A stretch of 40,727 nucleotides of DNA from a virus. Below the pieces are notes generated by a model. The model searched no databases and was not told where the DNA came from. It worked only from the letters and a program-made list of their open reading frames with translations. Below are positions 3,000 to 37,807 of the stretch, in pieces (position 1 is the first letter of the stretch; every line of letters begins with the position of its first letter). A program made the position numbers and the translations under genes. The stretch is taken from positions 1 to 40,727 of IMG/VR virus record IMGVR_UViG_3300043313_001282; one strand, given 5' to 3'.

Positions 3000-4744
3000 G
3001 GACTACCGCCCTGCTTCTTCACCGCTGCCTGTGTCGCCAGCAGCGCAGCCCCGCCTTCAGTGCCGCCCTTCTTGATACCCTCCGTCGCACCTCCGGCTGC
3101 CGCGTCTGCCGTCTCCCACGGAGTGCCCGAAGCAAAATGCTGCTCGATCACCGTGCTGTACGTTTGCTTGATGTCGGTCGGCGCGACCGGCGGTCCGATC
3201 AAGGGTTGAGCGGCGACATTCCTCGCGTCGAGATTCTGATCACCGAGCCCGATCTGAGCACCGATGGCCTCGGCCTCCTTCAGACGCTCGTATGCGCGCG
3301 CGTAGTTCTCGGCCTTCGCTTTCGCGACGTTGTCAGTGCTCCCGGTACCAGGGCCTTCACGATCCGCCTGGTCGATCGTTTCCTTGCCGATGTCTTCGAG
3401 CCCGGGGATATGCGAGAGCAATTGCCCGACCGCTCGATAGCCCTGCTGCGGGATCCTATTCCAGAGGCCGTTGAACGTATCTTCAATCCAAGCGATGAGC
3501 AGATTGAAAGCGCCGCGGATGTCATCCCAGACGGCGTTGATTTGGAGGTTGAGCCCCTTCGCCAGCCCGACAACGACGCTGACGAAATTGCCGAACCCAC
3601 CGCTCATCGCTTGAACGCCGACGTAGTAGGCATCGATCCATGGCGCCCAAAACGTCTTATTGAACGTGCCAGTGTTTGCGTCGCGGATCTCGCCTGTCGC
3701 CGTCAGCCACTTCACCTTGAATGCAAAAGCATCAGCGCCCGCCAGCCGGAAGTCCGCGCTGATCGATTTGAAAAACGCCTGCACCGTGGCTGCGGAGCCC
3801 GGGCCGAAAACCTTGTTGATGAGATCGCCCGCGAGCGATTTGCCACCAGTCAGAAAAGTGATCGCGTCCTCGAGCAGCAGGAAACCAAGGACGATCGGCG
3901 CGATGCCGAGTAGAAGCGGCAGTAGCGCGGAGGCTCCCGCGAGCCCCATCGCAATCAACGCCGTCTTCATCAGGCTTGACTGCTTCACGATCGGGATGAG
4001 GCTCTTCAGCAAATCAATCCCGTTGTGCGTCCACTGCACGAGCATAGGCAACAGTGGCTTGAGCGCCTGAATCGCGAAGCCCTTGAAGCCGAGCTTCAGT
4101 CGGTCGACGTTGTCGTTGACCTCTTGCGCATTGTCGAGGAAGTCGTCATCGAAGCTCGCGCCGAGTTCGCCGACTTCGGCTCGCAGCTTCTTGATGCCTT
4201 CGGCGCCCTCTTGGAAGAGCGGCATCAGCTTGATCGCGCCCTTGCCGAACAGCGCCATCATGGTCGCCGTGCGCTTGGCCGGGTCCTGCATGGCGACCAG
4301 GCCGTCGGCGACGCCGTCGAGCAGCTCGATGGGCTCGCCGACTTTGCCGGTCGAGTCCTTGATGTTGACGCCGAGCGCTTTGAACGCATCCGCCGCAGGC
4401 CCGGCGCCCTTGCCGGCTTCGGCGACGTTTCGGTTGAACTTGGTAAAGGCGCCCGTAAACTCCTCAGCGGACGAACCCGAGAGCTTCGCCGCCCATTGCC
4501 AGCCCTGCAGATCGGCAGTCGAGACACTGAGTGCCTGCGATTGCTTCGCGAGCGCGTCAGCCGTCTCGAGGATCTCCGCGCCGAATTCGAGGATCTCTTT
4601 TGCGACGAATGCTTCGGCGACGAGGGGCCCGAATTTGACGAGCTTCTCGATCATTCCATTGATCGAGTTCTCGCCCTTCTCGACGCCCTTGTGATCGAAC
4701 TCGATCCCGAAGGACGCGATGATTTCTCGGAGAGCGCCGGACAT
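2996..4744 (-). CDS. Tape measure protein (short)
   Basis: 582 aa. ATG at 4744 directly follows the TAA that ends the frameshifted chaperone product. The N-terminal 100 residues (GEN..NGMIEKLVKFGPLVAEAF, then ADALAKQSQALSVSTADLQG) are typical of phage tail tape measures. Strong hydrophobic segments follow at roughly residues 255-300 (MKTALIAMGLAGASALLPLL and GIAPIVLGFLLLEDAITFL). The C-terminus is an Ala/Gly/Thr-rich helix. With the usual rule of about 0.15 nm per residue the tail would be near 90 nm (inference). The gene sits between the chaperone frameshift pair and the Dit-like gene, the canonical order. Confidence 0.85.
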   Translation of the reverse strand: MSGALREIIASFGIEFDHKGVEKGENSINGMIEKLVKFGPLVAEAFVAKEILEFGAEILETADALAKQSQALSVSTADLQGWQWAAKLSGSSAEEFTGAFTKFNRNVAEAGKGAGPAADAFKALGVNIKDSTGKVGEPIELLDGVADGLVAMQDPAKRTATMMALFGKGAIKLMPLFQEGAEGIKKLRAEVGELGASFDDDFLDNAQEVNDNVDRLKLGFKGFAIQALKPLLPMLVQWTHNGIDLLKSLIPIVKQSSLMKTALIAMGLAGASALLPLLLGIAPIVLGFLLLEDAITFLTGGKSLAGDLINKVFGPGSAATVQAFFKSISADFRLAGADAFAFKVKWLTATGEIRDANTGTFNKTFWAPWIDAYYVGVQAMSGGFGNFVSVVVGLAKGLNLQINAVWDDIRGAFNLLIAWIEDTFNGLWNRIPQQGYRAVGQLLSHIPGLEDIGKETIDQADREGPGTGSTDNVAKAKAENYARAYERLKEAEAIGAQIGLGDQNLDARNVAAQPLIGPPVAPTDIKQTYSTVIEQHFASGTPWETADAAAGGATEGIKKGGTEGGAALLATQAAVKKQGGSP

Positions 4745-26796: not shown

Positions 26797-27098
26797 TGTT
26801 TATTTTCCTCGTCGACTTCCTGCTCGTAGCGACTGAGCCCCGGATCCGGCGTGTCCATGGCCAGGCTCTGGTAGCGCCCGAGGCGCGGTACGCTGAGCGC
26901 CGGATGCTCTTCAATTTCATTCAGTCGATCCTCGACCGTTGCCTGGTATTCATCGAGCGCTTGGATCAGTGCGCCCAGGACAATATTGTCAGGAGGCAAC
27001 CCTGACTCGCCGAAGCTATCACGCCAATCGGGCAATGGGGATTTCTCGTGCGCCGCGTGCGCGAGTTCGACCAGGCGGTCACTCAGCCACTTCTTCAT
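26793..27098 (-). CDS. 101-aa protein after helicase loader, unknown
   Basis: ATG at 27098 overlapping the loader stop. N-terminal helices (KKWLSDRLVELAHAAHEKSP, NIVLGALIQALDEYQATVED) and a charged C-terminal tail. A perfect palindrome GACAATATTGTC lies inside (about 26979-26990), though it is explained by the DNIV codons. No family recognised; possibly a helicase-loader accessory by position. Confidence 0.55.
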   Translation of the reverse strand: MKKWLSDRLVELAHAAHEKSPLPDWRDSFGESGLPPDNIVLGALIQALDEYQATVEDRLNEIEEHPALSVPRLGRYQSLAMDTPDPGLSRYEQEVDEENKQ

Positions 27099-27784
27099 GG
27101 CTCACGTCCTGTGGCAGTTTTCCCGGGCGCGCGCGCGGGTTCCGGAGGGAACAGGTTGATCACCCGCCCGCGCCCCTTGCCTCCGGTTTCGAGCAGACGC
27201 GCGACGACGGCAGCGCCGTAGTGGGCGCGAAGCTCCGTCTTGGTTTTGCCTGTGCTGATGATGCTCGGACGGCAGGCGTTGTACCGATCGGCGAGTAGCA
27301 CCGAAATCTCGAGCGGGTCGGAGTCCCATCCAGCGTCGTCCAAAAACAGGAGCCGGCTGTTGCAAGATTGTATCAGCTCGGGCGGATCGCCTTGCCCCAG
27401 CCGGTGCGCCTTGCGGCACCCTGCCAGCTCTTCGGTTGCGAACCAGCGCATCCACCGGGCTTGGTCCCAAAGCTCGGCTGAGCGCACGCTAGCGGCCAGC
27501 AATCGCCGAAATAGGTAACCCATCGCGCTCGACTTGCCGAGCCGGGTCGGCCCCATGAGCAAGACGCTCCCGTCGCCCCAGGTCCAGGTCTTCGCGAGCG
27601 TGACCAGCTCGGGCGCATGGATCCGCGCCTCGAGTTCGGCCGCGTTGCCGGCCCGGACCAGCGCCGGTAAACGCGAAAGAACCTCGCGGGCTTCGGCATG
27701 CCGCTCGCGTTCGCCCTGCTCGTGATCATCGCCGAGATGCTCGGCGAGATCTGGGATCAATGCGTGAAAGTTCGTTCTTTTCAT
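27095..27784 (-). CDS. DnaC/IstB-type ATPase, helicase loader
   Basis: 229 aa, ATG at 27784 overlapping the initiator stop (ATGA). Walker A GPTRLGKS (78-85), Walker B RLLFLDDAG (144-152, D149/D150), sensor region VLLADRYN...PSIISTGKT. The short N-terminal part is helical and polar. Like phage lambda P or DnaC it would load the replicative helicase onto the origin, with the initiator encoded just upstream. The C-terminal end is Pro/Arg-rich. Catalytic features are intact. Confidence 0.85.
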   Translation of the reverse strand: MKRTNFHALIPDLAEHLGDDHEQGERERHAEAREVLSRLPALVRAGNAAELEARIHAPELVTLAKTWTWGDGSVLLMGPTRLGKSSAMGYLFRRLLAASVRSAELWDQARWMRWFATEELAGCRKAHRLGQGDPPELIQSCNSRLLFLDDAGWDSDPLEISVLLADRYNACRPSIISTGKTKTELRAHYGAAVVARLLETGGKGRGRVINLFPPEPARAPGKTATGREP

Positions 27785-28566
27785 CGTGGGGTCCCTAGGT
27801 GCGTGCCCTCGAATCCGGTCAGCCCGTGATCGCCCTGCATCGGTGCGCGCGTAGCCCGACGCACGCCCGGACCCTGCGGACCGAACCGCTTGGAGTTCCT
27901 GAGCCAAGTGCGCAACACGGCCGCCGCATCGGACTTCGGGTCCCGAAATTCGTGATCGCGAAGCAGGGCCAGCTGCTCGGCCAGGTCTACGCCTAGCTCG
28001 GCAGCCAGCGCTCGATGCGCATCCGTCGGTTCGAAGTCAGCCGGGAACTTTCGCCAGCGAGCTTTGGCTTTTGGTTTGGGCGGCGGTGCCGGAGGCGCCG
28101 ATCCGCTATCCGAGATCTCTGCTCTGCTCTGCTCTGTATCTGCTCTGCTAAGAGTGACAGAAAGTGACGCGAGGTGACCCGTGTGACACGGGGTGACGCG
28201 GGGTGACGCCTCCCCAAGTGCGTCAAGTCTGCGATTATCCCGGCTTTCCTTCTGCCGGAGTCGATCGTTCCGACGGCAGGTTTGTGCGTGCACGTACTTC
28301 GGCCACACGACCAGTCCATCACGGAGCACCCACGTACGGGTCTCGAGCAGGCGCGCAAGCCCGACCTGAACGACCGACGCTGGTAGCCTGGTGACGAGTG
28401 TGACCGCGTGTGACGGATCGTGGCCATCGCAGTCGAAAACGCCCGCTCGATCGAATTTGCCATGCAGCATGAGGGCGAGCACGGTCTGCGCCTCCCAGGG
28501 CAGCGCGCACCAGCTCACCGTGTCGCGAGTGAAGTAACGAACGTACTCCTCGTCCTCGTAATTCAT
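27781..28566 (-). CDS. Replication initiator (lambda O / replisome-organiser-like)
   Basis: 261 aa from the ATG at 28566, which overlaps the DnaA-IV stop; a GTG three codons upstream is less likely. N-terminal domain (about 1-105): YVRYFTRDTVSWCALPWEAQ, LALMLHGKFDRAGVFD, LARLLETRTWVLRDGLVVWP, a wHTH-like initiator fold. Residues about 110-170 form a low-complexity linker. The C-terminal domain (about 172-235: RWRKFPADFEPTDAHRALAA, LLRDHEFRDPKSDAAAVLRT) is the region replisome organisers use to bind the loader. The linker DNA carries the phased GTGAC array (separate entry), as lambda O carries its iterons. Confidence 0.75.
   Translation of the reverse strand: MNYEDEEYVRYFTRDTVSWCALPWEAQTVLALMLHGKFDRAGVFDCDGHDPSHAVTLVTRLPASVVQVGLARLLETRTWVLRDGLVVWPKYVHAQTCRRNDRLRQKESRDNRRLDALGEASPRVTPCHTGHLASLSVTLSRADTEQSRAEISDSGSAPPAPPPKPKAKARWRKFPADFEPTDAHRALAAELGVDLAEQLALLRDHEFRDPKSDAAAVLRTWLRNSKRFGPQGPGVRRATRAPMQGDHGLTGFEGTHLGTPR
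28116..28414. other. Candidate replication origin: phased GTGAC iterons in the initiator gene
   Basis: Cluster A: GTGAC on the + strand at 28154, 28164, 28174, 28183, 28193 and 28203 (10/10/9/10/10 bp apart). Cluster B: GTGAC at 28391, 28400 and 28410. Beside A lies a strand-biased run with CTCTG repeated four times in tandem (28117-28136) and again at 28143. The 9-10 bp step moves the reading frame each time, so the encoded amino acids do not repeat; the pattern is a DNA-level signal with one copy per helical turn. It covers the linker and part of the N-terminal domain of the initiator gene. Confidence 0.6.
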
Positions 28567-28871
28567 GAGGCGCACCCCGGGGCGAACTGCGCGAGCAGCT
28601 CGTCTGTTGCACTCTTGAACCAGGGATCATTCTTCATCAGGCGTGACGCAGAGTTCGTGCACGCCATGATGGTCGTGTGGTCACGGTTGAGCGCCGCGCC
28701 GATTTCACTGAAGCTCATGCGCGTGCATCCGCGAGCGACGTAGCAAATGCATTGACGCGCCTCGGCGAGGCCCTTCGTTCGAGCGCGCCCACGGATGTCG
28801 ACGGCAAGCACGTTGTACACGACCGCGACCGCAGCCACGATCTCCTCGATAGCTCGAAGCCGTGGAATCAT
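28563..28871 (-). CDS. Free-standing DnaA domain IV protein
   Basis: 102 aa from the ATG at 28871, overlapping the sigma-like gene stop (ATGA). Residues 22-85 follow DnaA domain IV: VDIRGRARTKGLAEARQCIC, YVARGCTRMSFSEIGAALN and the signature RDHTTIM (63-69). There is no AAA+ domain, Walker A or domain I. Domain IV binds DnaA boxes, so this protein could mark the phage origin, recruit host DnaA, or block host initiation. It is directly upstream of the initiator and loader genes. Confidence 0.82.
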   Translation of the reverse strand: MIPRLRAIEEIVAAVAVVYNVLAVDIRGRARTKGLAEARQCICYVARGCTRMSFSEIGAALNRDHTTIMACTNSASRLMKNDPWFKSATDELLAQFAPGCAS

Positions 28872-29215
28872 CGACTGCACCACCACTCGGCGAGCGGCAA
28901 ATCGCTCGCGGCGAGCGCCAAGAGCTGCATGCATGGATCGAGTTTGAGTTGCTCGAGAGCGCCGTCGACGATCTGTTGACACGCCTGTTTGGACACGTGC
29001 CCGATCTTGCCGATCTCCGCGCACGTCAGTTCGACGCCCTCGGTTACCTCGAAAGCCATGATGGCCTGCCAGTCGCACAAGCTGCGCGATCGGTGGTTGC
29101 ACGCCGACGAGCAGAACCGCGCCAGCTCGAACGCTCGCTTGGTCGGGTAGTGCCCACGGGTCATGACGCATTGGCACTCGATGAACTCGCAGTGCTTGGT
29201 GGCCAGCTCGATCAT
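28868..29215 (-). CDS. Cys-rich protein with sigma70-region-4-like HTH
   Basis: 115 aa, ATG at 29215 overlapping the previous stop. The first half has HCEFIECQC and a FCSSACNHRSRSLC cluster, likely one zinc site. Residues 60-95 read GVELTCAEIGKIGHVSKQAC then QQIVDGALEQLK, the order of a sigma70 region 4.2/sigma-like HTH. It could be a transcription activator for middle or late genes; alternatively a zinc-HTH adaptor with no sigma activity. Confidence 0.62.
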   Translation of the reverse strand: MIELATKHCEFIECQCVMTRGHYPTKRAFELARFCSSACNHRSRSLCDWQAIMAFEVTEGVELTCAEIGKIGHVSKQACQQIVDGALEQLKLDPCMQLLALAASDLPLAEWWCSR

Positions 29216-29532
29216 TTGAACATCTCGAGCTGACGCTGGACGGTCGGTGTCTTGGGGCGAGTCGGACGATGAGGCTTCTGCTTTTTAGGCTGCGAGCATT
29301 TGACGCCCTTGCATTTAGCGAGTTCGCGAAGTGCGATCAGATCTGCATCGGCCAGCCGCCAGAGTGGATGCTCGTTGCGTTTGCACTCGATGCCACCATG
29401 CACGAGTGAGAACGAGAACAGCCCAGCGGCTCCCGGGTAACGCACCTCCGCCCACGCGCCGCGCGAGCCGAGATCAACGAACACGCACGCCTTCTTGAGC
29501 CCCGAACCGTTGTTGATGATCGTGACGTTCAT
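29212..29532 (-). CDS. 106-aa protein with possible C-terminal clamp-binding motif
   Basis: ATG at 29532 overlapping the methylase stop. Beta-rich start (MNVTIINNGSGLKKACVFVD, GAWAEVRYPGAAGLFSFSLV), a middle WRLADADLIALRELAKC, then a basic Lys/Pro/Thr-rich tail that ends QRQLEMFK. QLEMF at residues 101-105 fits the beta-clamp-binding pattern QL(x)LF. That would link it to DNA replication or repair; it is a hint only. Confidence 0.55.
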   Translation of the reverse strand: MNVTIINNGSGLKKACVFVDLGSRGAWAEVRYPGAAGLFSFSLVHGGIECKRNEHPLWRLADADLIALRELAKCKGVKCSQPKKQKPHRPTRPKTPTVQRQLEMFK

Positions 29533-30389
29533 GGGTGCACCAATATTTCGCCAACGGCTCCGCGTTTGCCGCCGTTCGAGTTGATGTTTCTGCGCGCGGT
29601 AACGCTATCGATTTTCCACGGCGCGAAGATGCGCCGTGCTTCCGCCGTGTCCGAGTTGCTCAGCAACACGTAGGCGCCCTGCATGACGCCTTCCGCGAAT
29701 GAGATAGCGAGGCGCTCGTGGTCCGACACGTTGAACCCCTCGCGACAGTAGGCTCGGAAGTTTGCCGATTCGGACGCGGGCAAATAGGGCGGATCGAAAT
29801 AGGCCGCATCGCCCTCGACGAGTCGGATGGCAGCAAAGTCTTCGTGACGGATCTCGACGCCGAGCAGCGCCGACGACGCCGCCTCGAGGCCCTCGACATT
29901 GAGGATGCGCGGGCTCTTGTAGTCGCCGAATGGCACGTTGAACGCGCCCGATTTATTGACCCGGTAGAGCCCGTTAAAGCAGGTGCGGTTCAGATACAGA
30001 AAACGCGCGGCGCCCGAAGCTCCGGGACTGCGGAGCGCGAGCTTGCGCTGCTCATAGAAGTATTTCTCCGAGTGCTGCTGCTGATGCAGCCGCAGATGGT
30101 CGATGACCGCGGGCAAACGATCGCGGATTTGGCGGTAGGCGTTGACGAGGTCCAGGTTCATGTCGCCGATCACGGCGTGCGCAAATCGACCAGCATTGGC
30201 GAGCGCGAAGAACACCGCGCCACCGCCGACAAACGGCTCGTAATACGTGCCTATTTTTGCGGGTAAACGCGACAGAATGTCGGGCAAGAGCTGGCGCTTA
30301 CCGCCCGCCCATTTGACGAATGGCGCCGCCGCAAACGCCTGATCGGTCGCAACGACGGGGCACGCTTCAGCGCGATTGGATTGCTGCAT
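29529..30389 (-). CDS. dam: DNA adenine methylase (Dam/D12 class)
   Basis: 286 aa, ATG at 30389. Motifs: FVKWAGGKRQLL (24-35), motif I YYEPFVGGGAVFFAL (49-63), GDMNLDLVNAYRQIRD, FNGLYRVNKSGAFNVPFGDY and motif IV FDPPYLP (198-204). This is the alpha-type order of D12-class N6-adenine methylases, the family of Dam with GATC targets. In phages it protects against restriction and can time packaging or regulation. The target sequence cannot be read from motifs alone. A second methylase (beta type) is at 19294-20880. Confidence 0.88.
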   Translation of the reverse strand: MQQSNRAEACPVVATDQAFAAAPFVKWAGGKRQLLPDILSRLPAKIGTYYEPFVGGGAVFFALANAGRFAHAVIGDMNLDLVNAYRQIRDRLPAVIDHLRLHQQQHSEKYFYEQRKLALRSPGASGAARFLYLNRTCFNGLYRVNKSGAFNVPFGDYKSPRILNVEGLEAASSALLGVEIRHEDFAAIRLVEGDAAYFDPPYLPASESANFRAYCREGFNVSDHERLAISFAEGVMQGAYVLLSNSDTAEARRIFAPWKIDSVTARRNINSNGGKRGAVGEILVHP

Positions 30390-35797: not shown

Positions 35798-36036
35798 GCC
35801 GGCGGTACCTCGTGCGCTGGGGCCACATGCATCGGCAAGAGAGCGTCGTGGAGACGTTCCCGATCGCGCTCGCCCTGTTCGTGCTGCACTACCAGGAGGA
35901 GGGCGGCGCCGTCGTGACGGGCGAGGGCTACGACTGCGACGCCGACGACGATGGATCCTTCGAGGTGAGTGACGGGCTCACCAGCGACGAGCGGGAGGCC
36001 ATCGAAGAGGTCACCCGCGAAGAGCGGGTCGCGTGA
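35794..36036 (+). CDS. 80-aa acidic protein, unknown
   Basis: GTG start at 35794 (GTGA overlap), GTGA overlap to the next gene. MSRRYLVRWGHMHRQESVVE, ALFVLHYQEEGGAVVTGEGY, then a very acidic tail (CDADDDGSFEV, SDEREAIEEVT). Acidic small phage proteins sometimes mimic DNA or inhibit host enzymes; nothing specific here. Confidence 0.5.
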   Translation: MSRRYLVRWGHMHRQESVVETFPIALALFVLHYQEEGGAVVTGEGYDCDADDDGSFEVSDGLTSDEREAIEEVTREERVA

Positions 36037-36233
36037 CTCGAGCCGACATCAAACAACGGCTGATCACGATCGGCCTGCTCGTGCGCGCGGGCAACCGCGA
36101 TGCCGCGATCCATTGCGAACGACAACTGCACGCCGATGTCCTGCGCGCGATTGCCGACGGCAAGGCCGGCACCGCCGAAGCCCGCGAGGCCCTGCGCAGC
36201 CTCGAACTGGAATTTCCAAGGAGTGCCGCATGA
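36033..36233 (+). CDS. 66-aa helical protein, unknown
   Basis: GTG start at 36033 (GTGA). Reads DIKQRLITIGLLVRAGNRDA, HADVLRAIADGKAGTAEARE, ALRSLELEFPRSAA, a compact helical bundle. Its TGA overlaps the exonuclease ATG, so it is part of the same coupled unit. Confidence 0.5.
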   Translation: MTRADIKQRLITIGLLVRAGNRDAAIHCERQLHADVLRAIADGKAGTAEAREALRSLELEFPRSAA

Positions 36234-37807
36234 TGGTTCTGGTCGATCTCGCCGCTATTTTTTACCGCAATTTCCACGGCTGCAAATCGTCAGGACCCGA
36301 GGCGTACGCCGTCACCCTTGAACAGATGCGAGCCCTCACCTACTCGCCCGACACGGTGGTGATCTGCTGCGAGGGCGGCAACCTCAAGCGCCTGGAATAT
36401 TTCCCGGCGTACAAGGCGCAGCGCGACCCGAAGCCGCCCGAGCTGCTCGAGGCCCTCGCCGAAATCATCGGGGAGCTGTCGACCTGGAACATCAACGTGG
36501 TCGCGGTCGACGGCTACGAAGCCGACGATGTGATCTACACGCTCGCCAAGCACGCGGCCGAGCCCGTACTGATCCTGTCCTCGGACAAGGATCTCTATGC
36601 CTGCGTCAGCGAGCGCGTGACGCTGCGCACGGCGACCGGCAAGATGGTCGGGCCCGCCGAGTGCGTCGAGAAGTTCGGCGTGCGCCCCGACCAGATCCGA
36701 GACTTCCTCACACTGACGGGCGACGTAGCCGACAACATCCCGGGCTGCCCCAACTGCGGGCCCGGGCGTGCGGCCTTGCTGCTCAAGCGCTTCGACACGC
36801 TCGACGCCATCAAGGCAGCGCCCATCCGCGAGATCGAAAAGATCCGGGGCATCGGAAAAACCACACTCTTCTCGCTGCGCGAATGGGATCCAACCATCGC
36901 GCGGCGCCTCACTCAGTTACTCGAAATCCCCGACCTCGTATCCGCACTCAAACCAGCATCCCCAGCAGCAGAAGGAATAGACACCATGGCCGACATGACT
37001 CAGATCGTTACCAGCCGGAAATCCGGACCCTTGAAAATCCTCGCCTATGGCCCCGAAGGCGTCGGTAAAACGCGCTTCGCGGCGTTCAGCACCAAGCCCA
37101 TCTTTCTGTGCGCGGAGAACGGCCTCAGCGCGCCCGATCTGCGCGACACGCCCGCGTTCCCGGCACCCGACAATTGGGAGGACTGCATGGCGGCGATCGA
37201 GTGGCTCCGCACGGAGAAACACGACTACCGCACGCTGGCGATCGATTCCCTCGACTGGCTGTACCAACTCGCCAAAACCGACGTGTGCCTGAAGATGAAC
37301 ATGACGATCGAAAAGTTCGAGGACTTCGGACGCGGCGAAAAATACACCTTCGACTACTGGGTCAAATTCAACGCGGCGCTCGACGCCCTGCAGGCCGAAC
37401 GCGCCCTGCACATCGTCGCCCTCGCACATTCGTCCACGAAGGTTTTCCAGAATCCGAGCGGCGAAGACTTCATGCGCTACCAGCTCGCGCTCGCCGACAA
37501 GGCCAGCGAACGGTGGAAGCAATGGCCCGACTTCCTGCTCTTCATGTCGCAAGAGATCTTCACCAAGAAAGGCAAAGACGAACGCAAGCACAAGGGCGAG
37601 ATGGGCGACCATCGGATCTTCACGCGCCGCACGGCAGCCTACGACGCGAAGAGCCGCATCCTCTTGCCGGAAGCCATCCCGTACGAAACCGAAAACCCCT
37701 GGCGCTCCTTCAGCGCGGCGGTCCGCGAAGCCTCGGCCCCTGCCAAGCCCGAGCTGGCCTCCACGACTGCAGCGGCAGCGAAGCCCGCTACGACCCAAGC
37801 GGCCTGA
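36230..37807 (+). CDS. Fused FEN-type 5'-3' exonuclease and RecA-like (Sak4-type) ATPase
   Basis: 525 aa, first ATG at 36230 with AAGGAG upstream. Residues 1-250: PIN/FEN 5'-3' exonuclease with D6, EADD (97-100), SSDKDL (117-122), TGDVADN (163-169) and the helix-hairpin GPGRAALLLKRF. Residues 253-525: AAA/RecA-like ATPase with Walker A GPEGVGKT (274-281) and Walker B LAID (336-339). This ATPase type is the Sak4-like recombinase of phages, working with an SSB; the SSB-like gene follows directly. No stop separates the two parts, but an internal ATG (36986) has its own ribosome-binding site (separate entry). It would process DNA ends and pair strands during replication or recombination. Confidence 0.82.
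   Translation: MMVLVDLAAIFYRNFHGCKSSGPEAYAVTLEQMRALTYSPDTVVICCEGGNLKRLEYFPAYKAQRDPKPPELLEALAEIIGELSTWNINVVAVDGYEADDVIYTLAKHAAEPVLILSSDKDLYACVSERVTLRTATGKMVGPAECVEKFGVRPDQIRDFLTLTGDVADNIPGCPNCGPGRAALLLKRFDTLDAIKAAPIREIEKIRGIGKTTLFSLREWDPTIARRLTQLLEIPDLVSALKPASPAAEGIDTMADMTQIVTSRKSGPLKILAYGPEGVGKTRFAAFSTKPIFLCAENGLSAPDLRDTPAFPAPDNWEDCMAAIEWLRTEKHDYRTLAIDSLDWLYQLAKTDVCLKMNMTIEKFEDFGRGEKYTFDYWVKFNAALDALQAERALHIVALAHSSTKVFQNPSGEDFMRYQLALADKASERWKQWPDFLLFMSQEIFTKKGKDERKHKGEMGDHRIFTRRTAAYDAKSRILLPEAIPYETENPWRSFSAAVREASAPAKPELASTTAAAAKPATTQAA
36986..37807 (+). CDS. Internal Sak4-like ATPase start within the fusion
   Basis: 273 aa, in frame with the fusion, from ATG at 36986. GAAGGAATAGACACC precedes it, an AAGGA ribosome-binding site nine bases from the ATG. 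The same stretch contains a TAG in another frame, as if the exonuclease gene once ended there and a small change opened the readthrough. Free-standing Sak4 proteins begin in the same way, so an independent ATPase is likely made. Confidence 0.6.
   Translation: MADMTQIVTSRKSGPLKILAYGPEGVGKTRFAAFSTKPIFLCAENGLSAPDLRDTPAFPAPDNWEDCMAAIEWLRTEKHDYRTLAIDSLDWLYQLAKTDVCLKMNMTIEKFEDFGRGEKYTFDYWVKFNAALDALQAERALHIVALAHSSTKVFQNPSGEDFMRYQLALADKASERWKQWPDFLLFMSQEIFTKKGKDERKHKGEMGDHRIFTRRTAAYDAKSRILLPEAIPYETENPWRSFSAAVREASAPAKPELASTTAAAAKPATTQAA

Follow-up and report, generated by a model that had tools for sequence, protein, structure and literature searches.

A helically phased GTNAC array inside an initiator gene as a predicted lambda-like replication origin of a phage

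Why would the gene of a putative phage replication initiator carry a five-letter word repeated once per helical turn of its DNA? This question is raised by an IMG/VR virus record (IMGVR_UViG_3300043313_001282, positions 1 to 40,727), whose 40,727 bases, the whole stretch that we analysed, are called the window below. We propose, at a probability of about 0.8, that the array is the predicted replication origin of this phage: an intragenic, lambda-like origin whose GTNAC iterons would be read by the initiator encoded around them.

The array lies in a replisome-organiser-like gene on the minus strand (27781–28566), present in the list of open reading frames and with homologues that match PHROG replication-initiation families. 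The main array (28154–28207, minus strand) comprises six GTCAC in linker codons, at steps of 10, 10, 9, 10 and 10 bp, with GTGAC starting on the window strand at 28154, 28164, 28174, 28183, 28193 and 28203. A second cluster (28391–28414, minus strand) holds three copies at 9–10 bp steps, with window-strand starts at 28391, 28400 and 28410. The gene being on the minus strand, its own sense shows the unit as GTCAC and the iteron as GTCAC-N5; GTCAC and GTGAC are one pseudo-palindrome, GTNAC, seen from either strand. These positions are exactly those given by an earlier sequence-only reading of the window, and the CTCTG tandem repeat that it described beside the array is present (28117–28149, 6.4 copies). 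That reading had placed the whole array in the linker of the protein, which holds for the six main copies; the second cluster falls in codons of the N-terminal winged-helix-like domain.

The sequence-only reading also took the repeat for a feature of the DNA and not of the protein, and this is borne out. When we recoded the gene synonymously 20,000 times with the codon usage of the window, none of the recodings reached the seven phased steps (9–11 bp) found among the nine copies (mean 0.83, maximum 5). Elsewhere in the 40,727-nt window we found no further phased cluster of the GTGAC/GTCAC type. The GC skew of the window does not turn clearly at the array, which weighs against the origin reading.

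We then compared the locus with its relatives. An alignment of nine N-terminal domains (A2) was too diverse for a collection scan, and an alignment restricted to the N-terminal domain (A4) was taken instead; it returned 49 viral and 3 genomic loci, and removal of near-duplicates left 46 homologues, the window included. As A4 was built from array carriers, the independence of this set from the array extends only to the way in which its members were retrieved. Another scan (A3), which gave near-identical copies of one protein, was kept out of the statistics. GTCAC ranks first of all 1024 pentamers in the set, with at least two steps of 9–11 bp in 25 of the 46 loci, the runner-up reaching 5. Distances between GTCAC copies peak at 10 bp (87 pairs), 20 bp (82) and 30 bp (46), and GTCAC and GTGAC lie 10 bp apart in 44 pairs, which places sites of both orientations on the same face of the helix. 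At least three GTSAC occur in 40 of the 46 homologues, at a mean of 6.5 per homologue in the linker region versus 0.83 in the upstream domain; N-terminal-domain clusters are also found in three homologues (L201, L204 and L224). L002, which at 61% identity is the closest relative found, has GTCAC every 10 bp and, after it, a tandem of the 5-mer CCTAG. To the question of whether relatives lose the spacing while conserving the protein, the answer is that the spacing is kept. Three homologues (L199, L237 and L238) have sparse or irregular arrays, which weighs against the origin reading.

Arrays in the 46 homologues are under selection at the DNA level. Run starts are found in each of the three reading frames, and the pentamer GTCAC is exact while the spacer bases vary. 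Rare codons are forced within the arrays: the serine codon TCA makes up 45% inside them versus 9% elsewhere in the same genes (p = 3e-22), and the arginine codon CGT 47% versus 7% (p = 3e-28). Some array-bearing initiators also carry an inserted domain, namely a MUG113/T5orf172 (GIY-YIG-like) domain between the basic helix and the array in L212, L229 and L231 (at about 3300–3680 of each locus) and a different one with an HNH-like look in L205; the array persists downstream of the insertion in all of these.

Directly after the last GTCAC comes a tract that steps by 5 nt (28117–28149, minus strand; GCAGA/CAGAG in gene sense), a candidate unwinding or loading tract. Its self-identity at a lag of 5 is 0.48, versus about 0.26 in shuffled sequence, and it is locked in register with the array: position 2 of the unit is C in 153 of 189 cases across seven units, with the consensus G-C-Y-K-W. 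In other families the unit is AGAGA, CAGAG, AACAG or GATAAA. The tract is a local minimum of duplex stability. In 26 of 27 loci its first 40 bp are less stable than sequence lying further downstream (p = 1.5e-7), and in 23 of the 27 less stable than the codons of the N-domain. AT content in the tract region of the window is 49%, versus 36% in the gene.

What kind of protein is encoded around the array? An AlphaFold2 model of the window initiator predicts an N-terminal winged-helix-like (wHTH) domain (residues 1–97, codons at 28276–28566, minus strand; pLDDT >90 across much of residues 20–90), a basic helix (residues 101–116), a disordered linker and a C-terminal helical domain (residues 170–232, 27871–28059, minus strand). 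The arginine-rich helix segment (residues 98–116, RRNDRLRQKESRDNRR, 28219–28275, minus strand) is a candidate reader of GTNAC. Searches of the window initiator against Pfam, PHROG and NCBIfam models gave no family match, which weighs against the origin reading, and a sequence search against known structures and a PDB fold search with it returned generic winged-helix matches only. Residues 174–238 share 36–37% identity with the initiator proteins of Vibrio phages such as X29, and a viral fold search with the window protein returns HTH, DUF1376-type and replisome-organiser phage proteins. Many array-bearing relatives match PHROG replication-initiation families, some of them O-like PHROGs, and the Pfam DnaT domain is found in 5 of 30 array-bearing proteins. 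The array thus sits, as had been supposed, inside a replisome-organiser-like gene, given the family matches of its relatives and the result of the fold search. In these matches the relatives resemble described phage replisome organisers and PHROG initiation proteins, some of which have a DnaT-like C-terminus, but among the latter we found none with a GTCAC array.

The next gene of the operon (27095–27784, minus strand) encodes a putative helicase loader. The earlier assignment to DnaC/IstB receives weak support from profiles (PHROG DnaC-like loader, E = 0.01) and is helped by a visible P-loop (GPTRLGKS) and by the content of this slot in nine relatives sampled, where the next gene encodes DnaB in five and otherwise an IstB-like or other P-loop protein. 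On the upstream side, the neighbouring gene (28563–28871, minus strand) does encode a free DnaA domain IV protein (Pfam Bac_DnaA_C, E = 7e-18). Further upstream in the same replication gene cluster lies a D12-class N6-adenine methyltransferase gene (29529–30389, minus strand). Elsewhere in the window, a single 612-aa ORF (35969–37807, plus strand) fuses a 5'-3' exonuclease to a Sak4-like/AAA_24 domain.

The layout extends well beyond this phage. Scanning for the exact pattern of four GTCAC spaced at 10 bp gave at least 120 stretches, and the spacers vary in 107 of the 120 listed. Of the 120 listed GTCAC stretches, 37 are placed behind a basic segment within an ORF of at least 150 codons, versus none of 70 CTGAC and 2 of 80 GTTAC stretches read. 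Because these control pentamers show that 10-bp arrays are not in themselves rare, our claim rests on the gene context and on the array-independent set and not on the number of arrays. Among 398 bacterial genomes of one phylum, the scan found only one array with varied spacers, in an initiator that was already known. Phage families of E. coli, Pseudomonas and Aeromonas have the GTCAC layout too. An N-domain array and a linker array, neither of them annotated in the records, are present in both Escherichia phage Evi and Pseudomonas phage phi1. In the deposited phi1 genome (KT887557.1; L434, 3512–4396), no CDS covers most of the array-carrying initiator gene. The array is not peculiar to the window phage: judging by these sequences, several initiator families whose N-termini are dissimilar share its pentamer and its layout. 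Profiles of the two largest N-domain types match only marginally (65% probability), so that these types may, but need not, share an ancestor. Searches of the open-access literature gave no description of GTCAC origins in phages, which is weak evidence of absence as most subscription journals fall outside that scope; the one lead to a GTCAC origin was MtrA. In the same literature we found no description of the pentamer, its pitch or a phase-locked 5-nt tract.

The scans also brought up arrays of other kinds. GTTAC or related 10-bp arrays lie within primase/helicase-like genes or at their beginning (L330, L355, L360 and L373) and are perhaps another class of intragenic origin. A recurring CTGAC 10-bp array (CTGACATCAACTGACATCGACTGACATTGACTGACAT) from the control scan lies outside long ORFs (L250, L252, L286, L295 and L315), as do GTCAC 10-bp arrays that follow a T-run (L026, L028, L047 and L057), with nearly the same sequence in several contigs.

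How might such an origin work? We infer a path from binding of the array to melting of the tract and origin activity. Several copies of the initiator would bind GTNAC pentamers, one per helical turn and on one face of the DNA. The main array in the linker codons and the auxiliary array in the N-terminal domain codons would together build a cooperative, filament-like complex, whose end would coincide with the exact start of the weakly paired 5-nt repeat, in shared register. Strain would then open the tract and one strand would be kept there; the product of the next gene, the loader or phage DnaB, would be recruited as in the O-P-ori pathway of lambda. From the constant phase that array and tract keep, we suspect that the filament of initiators passes to the opening strand in steps of 5 nt. 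Bacterial oriC offers a parallel, with DnaA boxes followed by DnaA-trios, a short-step element in the unwinding region. The window locus likewise has double-strand sites followed by a short-step element, but its array is without DnaA boxes, its step is 5 nt and not 3, and its initiator is unrelated to full-length DnaA.

In phage lambda, the O iterons and an AT-rich tract lie in the middle of gene O and the helicase-loading gene comes next (PMC7466680). The window shares this plan, with its array inside the initiator gene, its predicted melting tract beside the repeats and a helicase-loading-type gene next, so that the lambda-O-like design put forward by the sequence-only reading stands as far as the layout goes; it does not extend to the iteron sequence or to O homology. 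The window unit is a 5-bp GTNAC per 10-bp turn (GTCAC-N5), whereas the lambda iteron is longer and of the CCCTCAAAAC..GAGGG type (PMC7466680); the melting tract of the GTNAC system is an in-register 5-nt repeat, often not strongly AT-rich; and the window initiator, unlike lambda O, matches no O family model. By the tests run here, the locus would be of the lambda design in its way of working but falls outside the lambda O family.

Which part of the protein would read the pentamer? Variant pentamers (GTTAC/GTAAC in L203, a mixture in L210, GACAC in L230) occur with the layout and tract kept, which argues for a phage-encoded reader. Two arginines (R104 and R109 in window numbering) are invariant in 41 homologues, and the same columns are invariant in a cross-family alignment of 30 proteins. 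An arginine-rich pattern precedes the array in 24 of 52 non-redundant array ORFs, versus 4% of downstream and 9% of shuffled upstream windows, a comparison that is descriptive because the pattern was picked after viewing these sequences. One family (L023, L029, L031, L037 and L061) is without the winged helix and has about 50–70 residues before the array, modelled as a short helix and one long helix with a basic end. Because the arginine-rich segment is common to the families, we tentatively propose the basic helix as the reader: a helix of the A-x-R-x-K/R-x-x-R type whose codons come shortly before the array. It is possible, though we hold this tentatively and would not bet on it, that one grammar, n repeats of GTNAC per 10-bp turn followed by a phase-locked 5-nt tract, operates across families and that the arginine-rich helix reads it in place of the N-domains.

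Could the arrays serve something other than initiation by the encoded protein? They might be operators bound by an OmpR/MtrA-type response regulator of the host, tying the phage to the host cell cycle, with the initiator gene a mere carrier. MtrA does bind GTCAC-like direct repeats within the oriC of M. tuberculosis (PMC4285127), but MtrA boxes hold two copies each and are read by a host regulator, whereas the phage initiator genes carry 3–9 copies with a tract. Arrays of 4–9 copies that adjoin a phase-locked melting tract do not look like operators. The sharing of the layout by E. coli, Pseudomonas and Aeromonas phage families also speaks against a host regulator, as do pentamer variants within one protein family, and we find this account very improbable. 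A shade less probable still is that the free DnaA domain IV protein, or host DnaA, binds the array and leaves to the 27781–28566 product only the recruitment of the loader. The DnaA domain IV gene lies next door and its product has the DHTT signature, but the gene is missing beside almost all other array carriers, with one weak match (L243) among 52 fetched homologue loci, within the stretch fetched, and a search of 27000–29300 that allowed one mismatch gave no DnaA box. The sequence-only reading had cast this protein as a partner of the initiator, a role that these results do not favour; the gene is probably an accessory of the window's lineage.

The array might also be a partition, packaging or incompatibility site placed by chance in a replication gene, since centromere-like sites likewise use phased short repeats; the destabilised tract, however, is always on the same side of the array, the next gene is helicase- or loader-like and no plasmid match to the window DNA was found, leaving this account a very slim chance. 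We give the least credence to a protein-level or slippage origin of the repeats in a low-complexity linker (Val-Thr/His/Ser-Arg rich, EQSRA/PSLAV-type) with no function in the DNA. Initiator linkers are often of low complexity and slippage can yield 5-nt repeats, but 10-bp steps shift the frame, the forced rare codons and the exact pentamer among varying spacers point to the DNA, and synonymous recoding never recreates the array.

Taken together, our findings favour the array as an intragenic origin read by the initiator encoded around it. Most phage origins outside a few models are unmapped, and the word, its pitch and the tract would provide a rule for reading origins off the sequence, with the binding and melting steps becoming testable in E. 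coli and Pseudomonas phages. A further question is why one pentamer should serve initiators whose N-termini are dissimilar. The basic regions of bZIP proteins read the half-site TGAC; if the arginine-rich helix does read GTNAC, prokaryotes would have a basic-helix reader that resembles these regions in principle.
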